The notes beneath the pieces are model-generated. The model was not told the origin of the DNA, made no database searches, and saw only the letters and a list, made by a program, of their open reading frames with translations. The position numbers and the translations under genes are program-made. From a virus, in IMG/VR virus record IMGVR_UViG_3300046642_000908, positions 1 through 22,266 of that record: a DNA stretch of 22,266 nt. One strand, given 5' to 3'. This document shows positions 8,946-18,461 of this stretch, piece by piece. Numbering within the stretch: the first letter of the stretch is position 1; every line of letters begins with the position of its first letter.

Positions 8946-9664
8946 CCCGTCGCTCCATAAAGCTCGCCCTTGAGTCTGGCGGACAGCGCCATGATGGCGT
9001 CGAGCGATGGCTCGTGGACTTCTTTTATGAGCGCCAGATCCTTCGTGGCGCGCTCGATCACCTCGTCGATGATCGCAGGCGTGCGCGCGACACCCAGCGC
9101 CTCGGTTATGCGCTTGCGGGCCTCGCGTGCGGCCAGCACCTTGCGCTCGCGCTCGGTCGGGTGCGCCGCGGCCTCAGGGGTTCTTGGGCGCGAGGCGACT
9201 GGCTCGACCTCGGCCTGTGTCTTGTCGTAGAGGGCGAGGCCGAAGGGATTGCCGAAGGTCATCAGACTGCGCTTTAGGGCATCTGTCTCACATTCTTTCG
9301 CCGCGCTCTCGTGCGCCTCGCCGATGTCAGCGTCGATGCCGGAACCATAGCCGGTGCCCTCACGGACGATGACGCACTCGCCGGCCCTTACCGTGACCCG
9401 CACCTTTCCAACGTAGGAGACGCGGAAGCCGGGCTTCTCGTATTGACCGCCAGCGCCGATGATGCAGGGCTTTTCCGAGACGCAGCGGCATTCGATGGTC
9501 TCGCGGTCCCAGCCATCAAAACCGAATATCCGGTTGGCTTCGGCGATGGCTACCCACCCTTCCAGATATGAGAGGGTCCGACCTGCCTGAGTACGTGTCT
9601 TAACGTGGTCTCTGGATAGGGGGGCGCGGAGCAACGAGAGTTGTTGCTCGTCAAATCCTGGCAT
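8942..9664 (-). CDS. RAD52-family single-strand annealing protein
   Basis: 240 aa. The start at 9664 is chosen because AAAGGAAGAAG lies just upstream and the N-terminus MPGFDEQQLSLLRAPL is natural; an in-frame ATG at 9772 lies inside the overlapping HNH gene. Motifs in order: TLSYLEGWVAIAEANRIFGF followed by DGWDRETIE, a beta region (YVGKVRVTVRAG), then GTGYGSG, then HESAAKECETDALKRSLMTF and GNPFGLALYDK. These are the hallmarks of the RAD52/Rad22 fold (N-terminal annealing ring). The C-terminal 90 residues are charged and helical, probably a partner-binding tail. It should pair complementary single strands in phage recombination. Confidence 0.9.
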   Translation of the reverse strand: MPGFDEQQLSLLRAPLSRDHVKTRTQAGRTLSYLEGWVAIAEANRIFGFDGWDRETIECRCVSEKPCIIGAGGQYEKPGFRVSYVGKVRVTVRAGECVIVREGTGYGSGIDADIGEAHESAAKECETDALKRSLMTFGNPFGLALYDKTQAEVEPVASRPRTPEAAAHPTERERKVLAAREARKRITEALGVARTPAIIDEVIERATKDLALIKEVHEPSLDAIMALSARLKGELYGATG

Positions 9665-10106
9665 GAGACTTCTTCCTTTCTCGATATTTGGCTTGTCTAA
9701 CATGCAGACATTCCCGGCATTGCCGATGGCCCTGTGTGTCGATATACATAAATGTCGCCAAAAGATGACCATGTGAACAATGTGCGCGAGGCGGACGCAA
9801 GGCGCTTATTGCGCCCCTAAGCGTATTCTCGCGATTGGTTACTGGTTCTAAATGAGAGGGGTTGACACAAAAACTATTCCGGCACAGATGGTCAATTTGT
9901 AATCCTTCTGGTATTGGCCCTTGCGCGAGTTCATATGCGAGGCGGTGAGCATAAATGCGCATTCCCTTCTGAAAAAACATAACTCCATATCCTCGCCCGT
10001 TAGTCGCTCCTATCCATATCCAACATCCGCTATTAGGTTCTGGAATATATTTTTCCTCGAACCTTTGTAAGAGAGGTTTAAATATATGACCCCTATGAAG
10101 GCTCAC
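9651..10106 (-). CDS. HNH homing endonuclease (HNH_3 type)
   Basis: 151 aa from GTG 10106, which has GAGGAG about 7 bases upstream and overlaps the previous stop as GTGA. The core is NSGCWIWIGATNGRGYG, then IYAHRLAYELAQG, then LQIDHLCRNSFCVNPSHLEP. It contains His54, the Asp72-His73 pair, Asn82 and His85 of the HNH site. Four Cys/His near the end (HCSHGH and CREC) suggest a stabilising zinc site. Its DNA is clearly richer in A/T than both neighbours, a sign of separate origin. It overlaps the RAD52-type start by 14 bp and follows an 18-codon remnant. Confidence 0.85.
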   Translation of the reverse strand: MSLHRGHIFKPLLQRFEEKYIPEPNSGCWIWIGATNGRGYGVMFFQKGMRIYAHRLAYELAQGPIPEGLQIDHLCRNSFCVNPSHLEPVTNRENTLRGAISALRPPRAHCSHGHLLATFMYIDTQGHRQCRECLHVRQAKYRERKKSHARI

Positions 10107-10159
10107 GGATAGCGCTCCTCGTCGAACGGGGCGGCGAGCTTGGCGGCAATGTCGGTCAT
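10103..10159 (-). pseudogene. 18-codon remnant of a gene cut by the HNH insertion
   Basis: ATG 10159 overlaps the upstream stop (ATGA) exactly as intact genes here do, and the product is MTDIAAKLAAPFDEERYP. It then ends at a TGA shared with the HNH GTG start. The codon use and GC content match the phage, not the AT-rich HNH gene. The simplest reading is that the HNH unit replaced the remainder of this gene. The L-AAPF-type N-terminus resembles the start of some phage annealing proteins, but this is too short to prove. Alternatively it is a real leader peptide that couples translation. Confidence 0.45.
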
Positions 10160-10371
10160 CGGGATTCCTTGCCGACCAGCGTGTATCGGCTATTACGGGT
10201 TTCGATTTCGCCCGTAGCTTCGTCATGGAACACAACATAGCTGGTGTGTCCGTCTCCCCGGATGTGCTCATGGTCGAGAAACTGTCCATTGATGCCGTAG
10301 CCGAGCCCGCCTTGACATGGGTAGCGCCACCAACGCTCAATGCGCCCTTTGTGAGGTTTGTCGGTCATCAT
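10156..10371 (-). CDS. Small phage protein, unknown function
   Basis: 71 aa from ATG 10371 (or ATG 10368). It overlaps the upstream stop in the ATGATGA string and the downstream remnant by ATGA. The sequence MMTDKPHKGRIERWWRYPC is followed by GYGINGQFLDHEHIRGDGHT and TSYVVFHDEATGEIETRNSRY. It looks like a small beta-rich domain with the last strand matching short phage and bacterial modules. No catalytic motif is recognised. Confidence 0.6.
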   Translation of the reverse strand: MMTDKPHKGRIERWWRYPCQGGLGYGINGQFLDHEHIRGDGHTSYVVFHDEATGEIETRNSRYTLVGKESR

Positions 10372-13417: not shown

Positions 13418-13599
13418 CGGAAGCGGAGATACGTAAAGACGAACGGGCGCGTATCGCGGCAAAGTTGCTCGAGCCGCCGCCCTCTGAGATTGTCAACGCT
13501 GCGCCAGAGTGGCGAGATATAGATCTCTACCCGTCTGATGTTTGGTGTCCGATGGCGCGGGCGTTTGCCGATTTCTTCCTAAGCGAGCGGAAACCATGA
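13414..13599 (+). CDS. Small hypothetical phage protein
   Basis: 61 aa from ATG 13414, overlapping the VRR-NUC stop by ATGA. An N-terminal charged helix (MTEAEIRKDERARIAAKLLE) is followed by PSEIVNAAPEWRDIDLYPSD and an aromatic end. No domain is recognised. The same type of short helix-first protein is common in phage right operons. Confidence 0.55.
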   Translation: MTEAEIRKDERARIAAKLLEPPPSEIVNAAPEWRDIDLYPSDVWCPMARAFADFFLSERKP

Positions 13600-13784
13600 A
13601 GCCAAACATGAAGGACTGGAACCATTTAAATTTGGCCGAGGTCGCCGAGGTCGAGGCGCTGTCGCTGGTGATCGTGGGCGAGATGCCGGTATGGGGCCGG
13701 CAGGGACGCTCCGCACGTCTCGCCGAGCTGCTCGCGCGCCGGGTGCGACCGCTGTACGACGATAAGCCAACGGACGCAGCATGA
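13596..13784 (+). CDS. Small hypothetical phage protein
   Basis: 62 aa. ATG 13596 overlaps the preceding stop (ATGA), and its own stop overlaps the next ATG. The sequence starts MKPNMKDWNHLNLAEVAEVE and ends in a basic helix (RSARLAELLARRVRPLYDD). It is soluble, with no motif. Confidence 0.5.
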   Translation: MKPNMKDWNHLNLAEVAEVEALSLVIVGEMPVWGRQGRSARLAELLARRVRPLYDDKPTDAA

Positions 13785-14614
13785 TGCCGGGCGATGTTAA
13801 AGCGGCGCGCGAGGTCAAGCTGCGTGTGCTCTCGCTCGGCGCGGGGGTGCAGAGCACGACGCTCGCGCTGATGGCAAAGCACGGCGAGGCTCCGATGCCC
13901 GACGTGGCCATCTTCGCCGATACTCAATGGGAGCCGGAGGCGGTCTACAAACATCTTCGCTGGCTGATGTCGGTGCTGCCCTATGAGGTTATCACCGTGA
14001 GCGCGGGCGACATTCGCCAAGCAATCAGGGATCGCCGCAACACGACCGGCGGTCGGTTTGCGGCGATCCCGTGGCACACGGTCAACCCGGACGGTTCGCA
14101 TGGCATGGGCCGGCGGCAATGCTCATCGGAATACAAGCTCGGGCCGATCATGCACGCGATCCGCGCGCATCTTGGCAAGCCGGGGCGCGTGCGTATCCCG
14201 TCCAAAACGGTCGAGGTGCTGCTTGGCATCTCGCGCGATGAGGCACAGCGGATGCGCGAATCTCGGCAGCGGTACATGGTCAATCGCTATCCGCTGATCG
14301 AGATGGGGATGACGCGGCAGGCTTGCTTGCGATGGCTCGATGCCCACGGCTATCCGCGCCCGGCCAAGTCCGCCTGCATCGGGTGCCCCTACCATGACAA
14401 TGACCATTGGCGCGGGATGCGAGACAATCAGCCCGAGGAGTGGGCCGATGCCGTCGCGGCCGACCATGCGCTGCGGATCGGCGATGCGCGTGGGATGCGG
14501 GCCATCGAGTTCATGCACCCGCAGCGCGTCCCGCTCGATGAGGTGGACCTGTCGGTGGACAACCGGCAACTCGACCTGTTCGGCAACGAATGCGAGGGGG
14601 TCTGCGGTGTCTAG
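13781..14614 (+). CDS. PAPS-reductase-like nucleotide alpha-hydrolase
   Basis: 277 aa from ATG 13781 (or 13784). Residues 14-30 hold the PP-loop variant RVLSLGAGVQSTTLAL, and residues 38-49 give PMPDVAIFADTQW, the second conserved box of the PAPS reductase/adenine nucleotide alpha-hydrolase superfamily. RRQCSSEYK (Cys114) and a late CIGCPYH (Cys199, Cys202) make a CxxC motif that could hold an iron-sulfur or zinc centre. The C-terminus VDNRQLDLFGNECEGVCGV is Cys-rich. Phage members of this superfamily are frequent. The substrate may be a nucleotide rather than PAPS, and DNA or RNA sulfur or base chemistry is possible. Confidence 0.75.
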   Translation: MMPGDVKAAREVKLRVLSLGAGVQSTTLALMAKHGEAPMPDVAIFADTQWEPEAVYKHLRWLMSVLPYEVITVSAGDIRQAIRDRRNTTGGRFAAIPWHTVNPDGSHGMGRRQCSSEYKLGPIMHAIRAHLGKPGRVRIPSKTVEVLLGISRDEAQRMRESRQRYMVNRYPLIEMGMTRQACLRWLDAHGYPRPAKSACIGCPYHDNDHWRGMRDNQPEEWADAVAADHALRIGDARGMRAIEFMHPQRVPLDEVDLSVDNRQLDLFGNECEGVCGV

Positions 14615-15101
14615 GGATGAGGCGCGCGAGGTCGCCGAGAGGGACGATCCGCTGCTTGCTATAGCCGCAAAACGGGTGGCCGAGAGGCGGCAACACGGGT
14701 GCCACTATGCCGAGGGCACCTGTCTCGAATGCCTTGCTATCGCCGAAGAAGTGCTGCGCGCAATCTTCCCGGAGAAGCCGCCGCTTGGTGCTATTGAATG
14801 GATGGCCCGGGCGCACTCTCCACGTTTGTGGACAGCGATCGACACCAAGGCGTCACCTAAAGCACCTAATCCACCTAAAGCTCTCGCCTGCGGCGGCTCG
14901 ATCGGGTCGGCTTTAGGTGCTTTAGCCGGTTTAGGTAGGGTGGAGCCGCGAACTTCGTTTTGCAGAGTGTCGCTGAACTTGCGATACGCGATCACGATCA
15001 AGGCTCCCGCACGATGCGCCATGCGTCGCGCCGGCGCACCCCTGCCACCACCGCGCCCTGCGGTATGGGTTCGAGCCAGCCGTGATCTTCGAGAATGCTG
15101 A
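14607..15101 (+). CDS. Phage protein whose 3' half is fused to foreign antisense DNA
   Basis: 164 aa from GTG 14607, with GAGGGGG about 6 bases upstream and an 8-bp overlap with the PAPS-reductase-like gene. The first half is plausible (SRDEAREVAERDDPLLAIAA, then HGCHYAEGTCLECLAIAEEV with a Cys/His cluster, then EWMARAHSPRLW). From about residue 80 the sequence is low-complexity (KASPKAPNPPKAL) and then Arg/Ala-rich. There the opposite strand reads better. I infer the true gene ended near residue 75-80, and that a foreign segment now supplies the tail. The Cys/His part may bind zinc. Confidence 0.5.
   Translation: MSRDEAREVAERDDPLLAIAAKRVAERRQHGCHYAEGTCLECLAIAEEVLRAIFPEKPPLGAIEWMARAHSPRLWTAIDTKASPKAPNPPKALACGGSIGSALGALAGLGRVEPRTSFCRVSLNLRYAITIKAPARCAMRRAGAPLPPPRPAVWVRASRDLREC
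14854..14924. repeat. Inverted CACCTAAAGC-type repeats
   Basis: TAAAGCACCTAA (14858-14869) is the exact reverse complement of 14913-14924. CACCTAAAGC (14872-14881) is the exact reverse complement of 14910-14919. They can form a stem with a loop of about 28-43 bases. On the minus strand the same DNA spells Lys-Pro-Ala-type (KPAKAPK) and then Leu-Gly-type (LGGLGALG) repeats, so the symmetry may come from coding. Confidence 0.7.
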
Positions 15102-15177
15102 CGAGCTTCGCCGCGGTCGCCTTGTCGCCGATCGCGTTAAGGGTTCGCTGGTTCGTGCGATGCCTATATGGCGGGTA
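14998..15177 (-). pseudogene. Antisense C-terminal remnant of a DUF3987/primase-like gene
   Basis: The minus strand is open for about 59 codons, without a start, and ends at a TGA (14998-15000). It reads RTLNAIGDKATAAKLVSILE, then DHGWLEPIPQGAVVAGVRRR, then DAWRIVREP. This resembles the closing winged-helix part of DUF3987-type proteins of bacterial genomic islands and plasmids (LxDHGWL..P..G.......RR..AWRI). Downstream on the same strand AYRKFSDTLQNEVRGSTLPK continues like the next island gene. The fragment lies against the direction of the phage operon, so it appears to be captured DNA. Confidence 0.55.
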
Positions 15178-15179
15178 TT

Positions 15180-15227
15180 ATGGACACGATAGAGGCGCGC
15201 GAGGTCGCCGAGGAGATGATCCGATGA
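15180..15227 (+). pseudogene. 15-codon 5' stub of a gene split by a homing endonuclease
   Basis: ATG 15180 gives MDTIEAREVAEEMIR and then TGA, which overlaps the HNH start (ATGA). The stub aligns with the start of the gene after the endonuclease (MKKYDEAISVAEEQIRHWKYW): EA, VAEE and IR match in order. I infer that the endonuclease entered after the IR codons. It could also survive as a short leader that couples translation. Confidence 0.55.
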
Positions 15228-15694
15228 TAATTACGCTTAGAGGCGGTCTTGAAACCATAATTGATGACGAAAGTTGGCCCATAGCTGAAGGGTATAAATG
15301 GCTTCCATCTAACGGGAGGCGAGGGTATTGGTATGCCTGTGCTTATCGTTTCAATAGGCGATTCGTGCTTCATCGTCTTATTGCCAACGCTCTTCCTGGG
15401 CAAGTCGTAGACCATATAAATAGAAATACATTGGATAATAGAATTGCCAATCTTCGTATAGCAACTGTTTCCCAGAACGCCGCCAACTCACATCATCGAA
15501 ACAGGCTGTCGGGTTATCGTGGGGTATACTATGCACCTCACGGATTACCATGGGCCGTATTTATCCAGAGAGAATATGTTGGTAAATTTTCTAACAAAGA
15601 AGATGCTGCCTGAGCTTTTGATGCTGAGGCTATTAAAAGATACGGAGAGTTTGCAACGCTGAATTTTGAGGATTCTCGGCATGAAAAAATATGA
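15224..15694 (+). pseudogene. HNH-AP2 homing endonuclease with in-frame TGA
   Basis: From ATG 15224 (GAGGAG upstream) 129 residues are read before TGA at 15611-15613. The N-terminal half has His50, VDHINRNTLDNRIANLR with Asp63-His64, and NAANSHHRN, a complete HNH site. The AP2-type DNA-binding domain follows: SGYRGVYYAPHGLPWAVFIQ, then GKFSNKEDAA. After the stop the same frame continues AFDAEAIKRYGEFATLNF and runs to 15694, exactly the usual AP2 end. The family normally has Arg or a similar residue at the stop position, and CGA to TGA is one transition. The DNA is A/T-rich relative to its neighbours. Confidence 0.8.
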
Positions 15695-15857
15695 CGAAGC
15701 AATTAGCGTAGCTGAGGAACAAATTAGGCATTGGAAGTATTGGGACGTAAGTGCCCGCACCGCCTCGGTTGCGCTCGGCTACACGACGCATCGGCGGGGG
15801 TGGGAGCGGGTGCGCAAGGCGCTGGTGCGCTGGTGGCGGGAATACGGCGAGGCTTGA
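15681..15857 (+). CDS. Small phage protein, rebuilt gene after the endonuclease
   Basis: 58 aa from ATG 15681 (GAGG 10 bases upstream); the frame overlaps the end of the HNH-AP2 reading frame. The sequence is MKKYDEAISVAEEQIRHWKYW, then DVSARTASVALGYTTHRRGW and ERVRKALVRWWREYGEA. It looks like a compact helical, DNA- or RNA-binding-like protein with many Trp and Arg. Base composition changes within the gene: the first 24 codons are A/T-rich like the endonuclease, the rest are G/C-rich like the phage. This marks a recombination join inside the gene. Confidence 0.6.
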   Translation: MKKYDEAISVAEEQIRHWKYWDVSARTASVALGYTTHRRGWERVRKALVRWWREYGEA

Positions 15858-15887
15858 GCTCGCCGACCGCATCCCATATAATCGCCG

Positions 15888-15979
15888 ACGAGCGCGGGCC
15901 CGCCTGATCGACGGATCAGGACACAAAGCCCGCTACGCCGACCAGCAGCCCGGTTCAGCATTGGCCGGCCCGCGCTCGT
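15888..15979. ncRNA. Structured intergenic element with 13-bp inverted repeat
   Basis: The 13 bases at 15888-15900 are the exact reverse complement of 15967-15979. Between them CCTGAT (15903-15908) pairs with ATCAGG (15915-15920), a 6-bp hairpin. No frame here is convincing. It could be a folded RNA, a recombination or processing signal, or a cruciform. It is in the 152-bp gap between two genes. Confidence 0.45.
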
Positions 15980-16009
15980 TTCTCTCCCGGCTGCCAAGGC
16001 TGCTGCGCA

Positions 16010-16534
16010 ATGGACGATTGCCTACGCAAGATAGCGAAGATCGCGAATGATTTCGCGGTGCTCTCTCGCGAAACATTCATGTCGGACCTCGATACCATCT
16101 GCAATATGGAAGGGAGTCCGATAGAGATTTTGTTCGGCGCTGCATTGATCTTTGCCTTAAAGGAACAGATACCAGAATTTTCATTTGAGTTTATGGAAGA
16201 TGCGAGCGATCTCATAGATGGAAAAGAATATTATTCTAATTTTGTATTAAGCCAAAAGAAGATAGGGGCATATACGGTTGATTTTTATCTGTTTGCCAAG
16301 ACGGCATGTGGTGGACCGCTACGGATCGCCATAGAATGTGACGGGCACGATTTCCACGAAAGAACCAAACAACAGGCGGCGCATGACAGACGGAAGGATC
16401 GTTGGTTACAATCTCAGGGTCTTATCGTCATGCGGTACACCGGCTCCGAGATATGGGGCGATGCTGTCGGGTGCGCTCGGCAGGTTGCTAAGCTGGCAAG
16501 CGATCGCATCTTTTTCCTGGCCGCAGCGCAATGA
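16010..16534 (+). CDS. DUF559/Vsr-type PD-(D/E)XK nuclease
   Basis: 174 aa, ATG 16010. An N-terminal helix region holds GSPIEILFGAALIFALKEQI with Glu39. Then YTVDFYLFAKTA gives Asp91 and LRIAIECDGHDFHERTKQQA gives Glu109, Asp111 and His113. HDRRKDRWLQSQGLIVMRYT and GSEIWGDAVGCARQV close the fold as in very-short-patch-repair-type DUF559 proteins. The first half is markedly A/T-rich, a sign of acquisition. It ends in an ATGA overlap with the initiator gene, so it is tied into the replication operon. Probable role: nicking or cleaving modified or mismatched DNA. Confidence 0.75.
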   Translation: MDDCLRKIAKIANDFAVLSRETFMSDLDTICNMEGSPIEILFGAALIFALKEQIPEFSFEFMEDASDLIDGKEYYSNFVLSQKKIGAYTVDFYLFAKTACGGPLRIAIECDGHDFHERTKQQAAHDRRKDRWLQSQGLIVMRYTGSEIWGDAVGCARQVAKLASDRIFFLAAAQ

Positions 16535-17304
16535 CCCGCATCTGTCTCCCCGAGCGGGCGTTCAACGATCGCCGTATCCGTGGGACACATCTACGATTGC
16601 TTGCCGCCATCGCGGCGCTTGGCGAGGGGGTGCTATCACTTCGGCAGATGAGCGGGCAGAGCGGCATAAGCGATCGTGACTTACGGCGACAACTCCGCGA
16701 GCTTGAGGATTTCGGCTACCTTGTCACCATACCAAACCCCGGCTCTGAATCGTCGTATTCTATAAACTTCAATGACATTGATGGGGGGGAAGAAAACTCC
16801 CCCCAGGGTGAGAAAAAACACACACCGACGGTTCCCCCCTTGCATGTCCCCCTCTCTTCCCCCTCTGGACTCCCCCTTCTCTCCCCCCTTAATCCCCCCT
16901 CCCTCTCGCCACAAAAGCGCGCGCGCGCGACAAGGCTCGCCGATGATTGGCGACCGAGTGCTGCGAGCATCGTTTATGCCGAAAGCAAGGGTTTTTCGGG
17001 CGATGATCTCGACAGACAGATCGAGGATTTTCGCGATTATTGGCAGCCGAAATCGGGGCAGAACGCCACTAAACTCGATTGGTCGAAAACATGGGCGACC
17101 TGGATTAGGAAGGCGGCCGATTGGCGCGGTCGACAGCAAATCAATGGCCATATCGCCAAGGCTCCGAACGGCTTAATGAGCTATGACGAGCCTTGGCCGC
17201 AACGGGTTCGCAGCTGGAAGCGCGATGGTGTGTGGATGTTCGATCAGTGGGGGCCGAGACCAGGCGAGCGCGGCTGTCGCGCGCCGCCCGAGTTGGTGGC
17301 TTGA
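16531..17304 (+). CDS. Replication initiator, lambda O-like with winged-helix N-terminus
   Basis: 257 aa from ATG 16531. Residues 1-80 are a winged helix: RRIRGTHLRLLAAIAALGEG, then LSLRQMSGQSGISDRDLRRQ and LRELEDFGYLVTIPNP. Residues 85-133 are a Pro/Ser/Lys-rich linker. Residues 134-200 form the DnaT/O-type domain: LADDWRPSAASIVYAESKGF, then RQIEDFRDYWQPKSG and KLDWSKTWATWIRKAADW. In lambda O the origin repeats lie inside the gene before the C-terminal domain; here the linker DNA is a repetitive C-run tract. The protein probably recruits the host helicase. It ends convergently with a leftward gene. Confidence 0.8.
   Translation: MTRICLPERAFNDRRIRGTHLRLLAAIAALGEGVLSLRQMSGQSGISDRDLRRQLRELEDFGYLVTIPNPGSESSYSINFNDIDGGEENSPQGEKKHTPTVPPLHVPLSSPSGLPLLSPLNPPSLSPQKRARATRLADDWRPSAASIVYAESKGFSGDDLDRQIEDFRDYWQPKSGQNATKLDWSKTWATWIRKAADWRGRQQINGHIAKAPNGLMSYDEPWPQRVRSWKRDGVWMFDQWGPRPGERGCRAPPELVA
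16834..16903. repeat. Helically phased C-run array, candidate origin
   Basis: Runs of five or six C start at 16834, 16848, 16859, 16872, 16883 and 16894, spaced 14, 11, 13, 11 and 11 bp. The minus strand therefore has six G5-G6 runs and could form G-quadruplexes. A GGGGGG...CCCCCC hairpin-like pair lies upstream near 16783-16805, and a CG-repeat follows at 16918-16929. Confidence 0.6.
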
Positions 17305-17459
17305 ACCGCCGGCACGGTAAGCCCGCGATGGATCTGCGCCCAGGTAAAACCCGGAAAGAGCGGCATGAGCGGGCGGATCGCCTCGCGCTCGGCCATGCGC
17401 TTGTCGACCGCGGCGTTGGCGGCTTGGAGGATCGCGGCGAACTGCGCTTGCGGGATCAT
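17244..17459 (-). CDS. Small phage protein at the end of the second leftward operon
   Basis: 71 aa. ATG 17459 overlaps the upstream stop (ATGA). The N-terminal part (MIPQAQFAAILQAANAAVDK and RMAEREAIRPLMPLFPGFTW) is helical. The C-terminal part is Pro/Gly/Arg-rich and overlaps the end of the initiator gene by 61 bp on the other strand. No domain is recognised. Confidence 0.5.
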   Translation of the reverse strand: MIPQAQFAAILQAANAAVDKRMAEREAIRPLMPLFPGFTWAQIHRGLTVPAVQATNSGGARQPRSPGLGPH

Positions 17460-17737
17460 GGCTCGCCTCGGGCTTTGGCGAGTGCGGCACGAGCAAACTT
17501 CATATCGTGGTTGTTGAAGCCGCCCAAATTGTTGATTTTGGCATATTCAGCAATATTGTCGTGTAAGAGTTGTAGGGCGTCGTAAAGCTCCGGTGCGGCG
17601 GCGATCAGAAGGGCGTTAGCCTCCCCGGCTGGCGCGTGGCAAAATTGCGTTGTCGCCACGGCATCATACTCAGCATCGATCTGCCAGCATGATCCGTTGT
17701 ATCGGGCTTTCCAAGGGCCGGGCGTCGGTTTGGTCAT
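17456..17737 (-). CDS. Conserved small phage protein
   Basis: 93 aa. ATG 17737 has an excellent ribosome-binding site (TAGGAGGA). It starts MTKPTPGPWKARYNGSCWQI, a form frequent in phage genomes, followed by AVATTQFCHAPAGEANALLI and AAAPELYDALQLLHDNIAEY. The C-terminal AAPELYDALQ-type helix is shared with many short phage proteins. Function unknown. Confidence 0.7.
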   Translation of the reverse strand: MTKPTPGPWKARYNGSCWQIDAEYDAVATTQFCHAPAGEANALLIAAAPELYDALQLLHDNIAEYAKINNLGGFNNHDMKFARAALAKARGEP

Positions 17738-17963: not shown

Positions 17964-18188
17964 CTAAGCCGCGCTGTCGAGCCGGAGCGGCTGACCCGAG
18001 GCGCTGAACTCAGCATGGATGCGAAATCCTTGCTTGCCACCGTAAGTTACAACGCGCAGCTCGCGCTGCAACTCGATGGCAATGTCCTGCGTAACCGCGC
18101 GGGCGGCTTCCAGGCTGCGCGCAGAGTTTCCCAAGGTCAGCCAATAGCCTTGCGTGTTCAGTCGCCGGCATTCGATCTGGTATGTCAT
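17964..18188 (-). CDS. Small phage protein
   Basis: 74 aa. ATG 18188 has GAGGAGGATG upstream. The sequence MTYQIECRRLNTQGYWLTLG, then NSARSLEAARAVTQDIAIEL and QRELRVVTYGGKQGFRIHAE suggests a small alpha-beta domain. The end LDSAA is shared with the preceding gene because of a 16-bp direct repeat. Function unknown. Confidence 0.6.
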   Translation of the reverse strand: MTYQIECRRLNTQGYWLTLGNSARSLEAARAVTQDIAIELQRELRVVTYGGKQGFRIHAEFSASGQPLRLDSAA

Positions 18189-18218
18189 CGTCCATCCTCC
18201 TCAAGCCGCGCTGTCGAG
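17966..18218. repeat. 16-bp direct repeats at two gene ends
   Basis: AAGCCGCGCTGTCGAG occurs at 17966-17981 and 18203-18218. Each copy ends a gene and encodes LDSAA followed by the stop. Confidence 0.75.
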
Positions 18219-18413
18219 CGCATTGCGGGCATCGCACGCCTCAACCCAGCGCTGGTATTCCTTTGTGACTCGCCATTGCCACTCGCTGCTGTGCGACCAA
18301 GAAAGCGAGGGCCGGCGATACGAGATATATTTAATCTTGCCGTGCGGACGCATTGGAGCTAGTCCCGGCACAAATGCTTGTTCCTCTTCGCTCCAATGTA
18401 CAATCTGAGCCAT
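18201..18413 (-). CDS. First gene of second leftward operon
   Basis: 70 aa. ATG 18413 has AGGGG about 8 bases upstream. The sequence is MAQIVHWSEEEQAFVPGLAP, MRPHGKIKYISYRRPSLSWS, then a C-terminal helix (WRVTKEYQRWVEACDARNAL) ending LDSAA. It looks like a small soluble protein. No family recognised. Confidence 0.6.
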   Translation of the reverse strand: MAQIVHWSEEEQAFVPGLAPMRPHGKIKYISYRRPSLSWSHSSEWQWRVTKEYQRWVEACDARNALDSAA

Positions 18414-18461
18414 CGTCTCATCCCCTGCGGCACCATTGCCGTGAACAGACAATGACGCATG

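Follow-up and report, generated by a model that had tools for sequence, protein, structure and literature searches.

The homing endonucleases of phages are usually described as intergenic, as encoded by introns or inteins, or as splitters of genes. Can such an enzyme also reside inside a gene that is restored by a foreign piece of that gene? The question is raised by a 22,266-nucleotide stretch of DNA (IMG/VR record IMGVR_UViG_3300046642_000908), here called the window, which is a bacterial virus contig with 62% GC overall. A small gene, which we name gene X and which encodes 58 amino acids in the window and about 58 in relatives, is preceded by an endonuclease ORF and a short stub (Table 1). 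An earlier note on this DNA had proposed that a gene was split and rebuilt around the endonuclease, and the coordinates it gave for stub, endonuclease ORF and downstream gene hold (15180-15227, 15224-15613 and 15681-15857). Comparison with related viruses leads us to conclude that gene X harbours the endonuclease gene and that a foreign, differently spelled gene start in the inserted DNA restores it.

A second contig of the same virus, UViG_3300046796_000264, showed 100% identity across 13.8 kb of comparison, and there the stub, HNH endonuclease and gene X are likewise present at 100% identity. The insertion is known from this one virus only, in two assemblies.

Table 1. Features at and upstream of gene X, in window coordinates
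Feature	Position	Strand	Evidence
Older partial gene X start (MMPGDVKAAREV), first 12 codons of a PAPS-reductase-like ORF	13781..13816	+	41/41 bases as in L005/L059
Second older partial gene X start (VSRDEAREVAE)	14607..14639	+	Immediately follows the PAPS-like gene, an order shared with L071
Stub, 5' fragment of resident gene X (MDTIEAREVAEEMIR*)	15180..15227	+	15191-15225 identical (35/35) to the uninterrupted L004 gene
HNH_3 endonuclease ORF, 129 aa	15224..15613	+	Pfam HNH_3, PHROG 99, alignment of relatives, fold match
Inserted unit, 506 bp, 43% GC, endonuclease and foreign gene X start	15226..15731	+	Comparison with L004, L005, L007, L008 and L009
GAGG, likely ribosome-binding site of rebuilt gene X	15668..15671	+	Sequence; inference
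Imported gene X start (MKKYDEAISVAEEQIRH), 35% GC	15681..15731	+	8/13 residues as in the resident start
Resident gene X body (WKYWDVSARTASVALGYTTHRRGWERVRKALVRWWREYGEA*), 68% GC	15732..15857	+	89.8-95% nucleotide identity to six uninterrupted relatives

Gene X and its uninterrupted relatives

The gene X search returned matches in seven other viral contigs, one of which is the same virus; L010, a candidate carrier from that search, was rejected as an unrelated chance match. Six related contigs (L004-L009) have gene X without the endonuclease, reading uninterrupted as MMPGDVK(E/A)AREVA(E/D)EMIR(H/S)WKYWDVSARDASVALGYTTHRRG... with slight variation in the first residues. In L004 the stub half and the G+C-rich tail adjoin as ...GAGGAGATGATCCGAT CC TGGAAGTATTGG... 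(more fully, ...GAGGCGCGCGAGGTCGCCGAGGAGATGATCCGAT CC TGGAAGTATTGGGACGTAAGTGCCCGC...), the very halves that stand apart in the window, and the window tail is 95% identical to that of L004. There is one exact site with two allele states, empty in L004-L009 and occupied in the window and L003. Stub and resident tail therefore belong to one gene, as the earlier note had anticipated, although the uninterrupted gene does not begin with the MDTIEAREVAEE (MDTI-) that it had supposed. Those MDTI residues come from the edge of an older insertion upstream.

Neither Pfam nor PHROG gave a match to gene X. The predicted fold has three helices, the first spanning residues 3-22, and nearly all of this predicted helix is the part cut and restored. 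HipB/HigA-type helix-turn-helix antitoxins and POU domains matched the model only weakly (E 1.8 or worse), so no function is assigned. In L009 the gene carries an in-frame TAG at about 4094 (Trp to stop), hence the rescue of gene X function may lack strong selection.

Directly behind gene X (15856-15995) lie a promoter-like TTGAGC...TATAAT and then a strongly paired element of about 110 nt (ACGAGCGCGGGCC...GGCCCGCGCTCGTTTCTC). The element is kept in relatives including L071, with a nearly invariant outer stem and an inner hairpin of variable sequence; it matches no Rfam family at E<=1 and is a possible phage small RNA. In L004 (4175-4290) and L009 (4325-4430) this promoter occurs a second time, ahead of other RNA-like elements, and in L009 an opposite-strand tRNA-Asn is found right behind it.

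The inserted unit and the imported gene start

Where an empty site of the L004/L009 type has two bases (CC), the window has the 506-bp block. Base composition by part is 61% GC for the stub, 43% for the inserted block, 35% for the imported gene X start and 68% for the resident tail. The corresponding GC3 values are 29% for the imported start and 35% for the endonuclease, 79% for the L004 resident start and 81% for the resident tail. Two observations of the earlier note, that stub and downstream start differ in composition and that the downstream gene switches from A/T-rich to G/C-rich within its length, are thus borne out. The 26 bp immediately after the junction (TGGAAGTATTGGGACGTAAGTGCCCG) are invariant in all relatives, so the right edge of the insert may be as much as about 26 bp further to the right; this segment is also less G+C-rich in every relative, which explains why the composition appears to switch some 20-25 bp to the right of the junction.

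Is the A/T-rich stretch truly a gene X start? MKKYDEAISVAEEQIRH is the translation of the final 51 bases of the insert, whose reading frame runs on into the resident WKYWD tail. With the register anchored on the conserved WKYWD, the agreement with the uninterrupted start of L004 (eight of 13 residues) is equalled in only 5 of 100,000 shuffles. Codons differ at seven of the eight common residues and nucleotide identity is 19/45. The imported start is a long-diverged version of the gene X start, not a recent duplicate, and the proposal that the invading unit brought its own divergent start, which now opens a hybrid gene, is upheld.

The homology that had been claimed between the stub and the downstream start themselves fares less simply. 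It stands by way of the relatives; blind comparison of the pair gave a score of 33, reached by 55 of 600 mismatched pairs and so not above chance, and for this reason the homology is secure only when relatives are included. The failed blind comparison would suit a start of non-homologous origin, the end of the insert having supplied by chance an ATG and a similar peptide. Such a coincidence is very improbable given the rarity of the 8/13 agreement in the WKYWD register, an imported length that matches the number of missing codons, and the DEA and EEQ held in common with the gene X homologue of L071, a distant one.

The GAGG lies nine bases before the ATG and likely came within the inserted unit. 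No donor with an A/T-rich gene X start was found in IMG/VR, genome contigs or INPHARED.

The endonuclease

The ORF carries the HNH_3 catalytic motif (Pfam HNH_3, 6.2e-10; PHROG 99, 4.4e-24). The best fold match of the model is the phage homing endonuclease I-HmuI (1u3e), a weak match with a probability of 0.96 and E of 0.08. No PDB relative was found by sequence, nor any close HNH relative across IMG/VR, genome contigs and INPHARED, where the best reached about 44-46% over part.

The frame is not intact. An in-frame TGA (15611-15613), identical in the second assembly, ends the endonuclease, with loss of the C-terminal helix. Past it the frame is open to 15694 and encodes a conserved AP2-like C-terminus (AFDAEAIKRYGEFATLNFEDSRHEKI); alignment with relatives reveals the family-typical end YGEFATLNF still encoded there. 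The AP2-type matches are sub-threshold (E 0.06-0.11), with the relatives in L013 and L032 scoring better. A stop followed by a conserved continuation indicates that this endonuclease is probably a decaying copy. The TGA, like the partial gene X starts at 13781 and 14607 described below, goes beyond the earlier note.

HNH_3 endonucleases occur in phage introns too (PMC10448857), and one might envisage a group I intron (or an intein) that is spliced out so that the stub joins the tail. A search of 13500-17500 for a group I intron core around the ORF led to rejection of that candidate, as Rfam gave nothing at E<=1. The stop of the stub lies inside the endonuclease start, the two overlapping as ATGA, and all of the sequence that separates endonuclease from tail is coding and contains the gene start once more. 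Splicing is accordingly a most unlikely account of this locus.

Two further nuclease-like ORFs were noted in the window. One (16010-16534, of MTES_1575/DUF559 type, with an A/T-rich stretch at 16150-16300) is also present in L004 and is therefore not tied to the HNH insertion. The other, HNH-like (IDHLCRNSFCVNPSHLEPVT), is on the minus strand at 9651-10340.

Older events at the gene X start

The gene X start has been entered before. The PAPS-reductase-like ORF (13781-14614) opens with gene X codons, the identity with the L005/L059 gene X start spanning 13776-13816, and alignments with related PAPS proteins begin only at residue 4-16. In L071 a PAPS-like gene (83% identical) is followed, at the place of the second partial start, by an intact gene X homologue that is 40% identical to the family's X; identity between L071 and the window stops at 14639. 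A 21-bp exact repeat is formed by the stub core (15192-15212) and part of the 14607-14639 copy. In L008 another small inserted gene is flanked by duplicated gene X start. New DNA has entered the 5' end of gene X time and again, in at least one instance with no recognisable nuclease, and the locus illustrates how new genes come in over and over at the 5' ends of small phage genes.

Since the PAPS-like gene brought a gene X start with no visible nuclease, recombination here is not always endonuclease-dependent. This weakens the case for the enzyme's role in the HNH insertion, which is plausible rather than established; the split-and-rebuilt gene of the earlier note is right in outline, with that caveat.

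These older events bring in the main rival explanation, passive shuffling by short homology. The gene X start would serve as a landing pad for units from other phages, each consisting of any gene plus the start of a gene X homologue, and the HNH gene would be merely one passenger. The two partial starts upstream, one of them placed after a PAPS-like gene just as L071 has it, and the duplication in L008 fit such a process, and elsewhere too relatives appear to swap single genes between short conserved boundary sequences. The HNH insertion alone, however, replaces only two bases, and its two edges fall at one point in gene X, which is what cutting at a single site would produce, whereas in the other events about 20-36 bp of gene start were duplicated. 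This two-base precision is peculiar to the HNH insertion among events at the gene X start, and we consider shuffling without homing rather unlikely, if still a serious competitor.

The DNA between the second partial start and the stub (14640-15179) looks foreign. It contains remnants of coding sequence on the reverse strand (TNQRTLNAIGDKATAAKLVSILEDHGWLEPIPQGAVVAGVRRRDAWRIVREP*), has a 27-nt inverted repeat at 14855-14936 and finds no match in relatives. Short conserved gene-boundary sequences (GACAGCGCGGCTTGAGGAGGATGGACGATGAC; CGGCAATGGTGCCGCAGGGGATGAGACGATG) are found in the window at 18184-18219 and 18411-18441 and, more than once, in L056. Across relatives unrelated genes lie between them, as if single genes were exchanged between boundary linkers.

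Proposed route of invasion

Invasion by an HNH unit with an imported start, through cutting and repair, is in our judgement the best explanation and the most likely route. In the donor phage a gene X homologue would have followed immediately after the endonuclease gene. Cutting of the resident gene by the enzyme at the gene X site would have led to repair that carried over both the endonuclease gene and the donor gene start next to it, with the join made within the conserved TGGAAGTATTGGGACGTAAGTGC. By these steps the unit, an I-HmuI-like HNH gene followed by a divergent A/T-rich gene X homologue start with its own putative ribosome-binding site, would have invaded gene X at codon 16/17. The old start would have been left as a dead-end stub of 15 codons and the resident tail given a new start, with which a full-length hybrid gene X of 58 amino acids can still be made. 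The respelled start would also abolish the cutting site and so protect the carrier. The endonuclease would since have entered decay, as the TGA suggests.

A mirror case among HNH loci

Does the arrangement recur? We surveyed 80 HNH loci, 60 from viral or genome contigs and 20 from phage records, mostly isolates, for gene ends that occur both before and after the endonuclease, judged against mismatched pairs. One clear independent case emerged, L032, in which the end of an endolysin gene is duplicated and recoded. The endolysin (CHAP domain; nearest relative only 41% identical) ends ...CRYVNHKYRGVLGWLHPKK..., the HNH gene is next, and ...CRYVNHDPRYRGVAGWLHPRK* stands directly behind it. The duplicated ends have the same residue at 18 of 22 codons and an identical codon at only four of the 22. 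The HNH enzyme of L032 belongs to the family of the window endonuclease, and the locus is the mirror image of the gene X case, the gene end rather than the gene start being duplicated and recoded. L063 and L047, suggested as duplications by the first survey, were rejected after inspection and the mismatched-pair control, and the 20 loci from phage records yielded no further case.

We tentatively suggest that both loci represent a cut-and-rescue phage element, a unit that carries a recoded start of its target (in L032, the end) and sits in coding sequence with neither intron nor intein. On the same reading, and with the same reserve, the gene may be kept working while the unit's own cutting site is removed. 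If this is true, phage homing endonucleases would have one more arrangement, in which the target is restored by a terminal piece that is foreign and recoded, and with it a recurrent but rare extra way to live inside genes. Such a unit would resemble engineered home-and-rescue gene drives, and it would account for some of the hybrid phage genes whose base composition shifts abruptly.

Comparison with known systems

Intronless endonuclease genes within phage coding sequence are known in T4-related phages, where mobE in nrdA of Aeh1 and mobA in T4 gene 60 split their host genes without rebuilding (PMC2988022). Those genes are in two pieces that need reassembly, in contrast to the window, where the imported start restores a single full-length frame. 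Free-standing I-HmuI-like HNH endonucleases, the enzyme family of the window, occur in Skunavirus (PMC12724721) and in ICP1 and others (PMC10448857); many are truncated and they are often at sites of genetic exchange. The available portions of these two articles contain no duplicated, recoded gene start. In the open-access literature we found no description of a phage endonuclease with a replacement gene start, subscription papers being mostly outside the scope of that search.

The closest likeness is with the mORFs of fungal mitochondria. In Allomyces, Glomus, Rhizopus and Mortierella, mORFs are associated with duplicated gene ends and donate divergent C-terminal pieces of atp6, atp9, cox2 and nad3; the native piece is left as a relic and the differences are mostly synonymous (PMC3630166). 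Duplicated ends of cob and atp6 are also known (PMC6279837). As in the window, the endonuclease ORF has come into a gene along with a divergent version of part of that gene. This foreign segment is joined in frame to the resident gene, and the resident segment it displaced persists as a relic. The mORFs differ in replacing the 3' end, and with it the C-terminus, whereas in the window it is the 5' start that is replaced, in a phage and with an HNH enzyme; the mORF enzymes of Glomus are of LAGLIDADG or GIY-YIG type. L032, with its duplicated 3' end, is the phage version that corresponds to the mORFs in this respect also. With gene X and its insertion, an arrangement described chiefly for fungal mitochondria has a counterpart in a phage.
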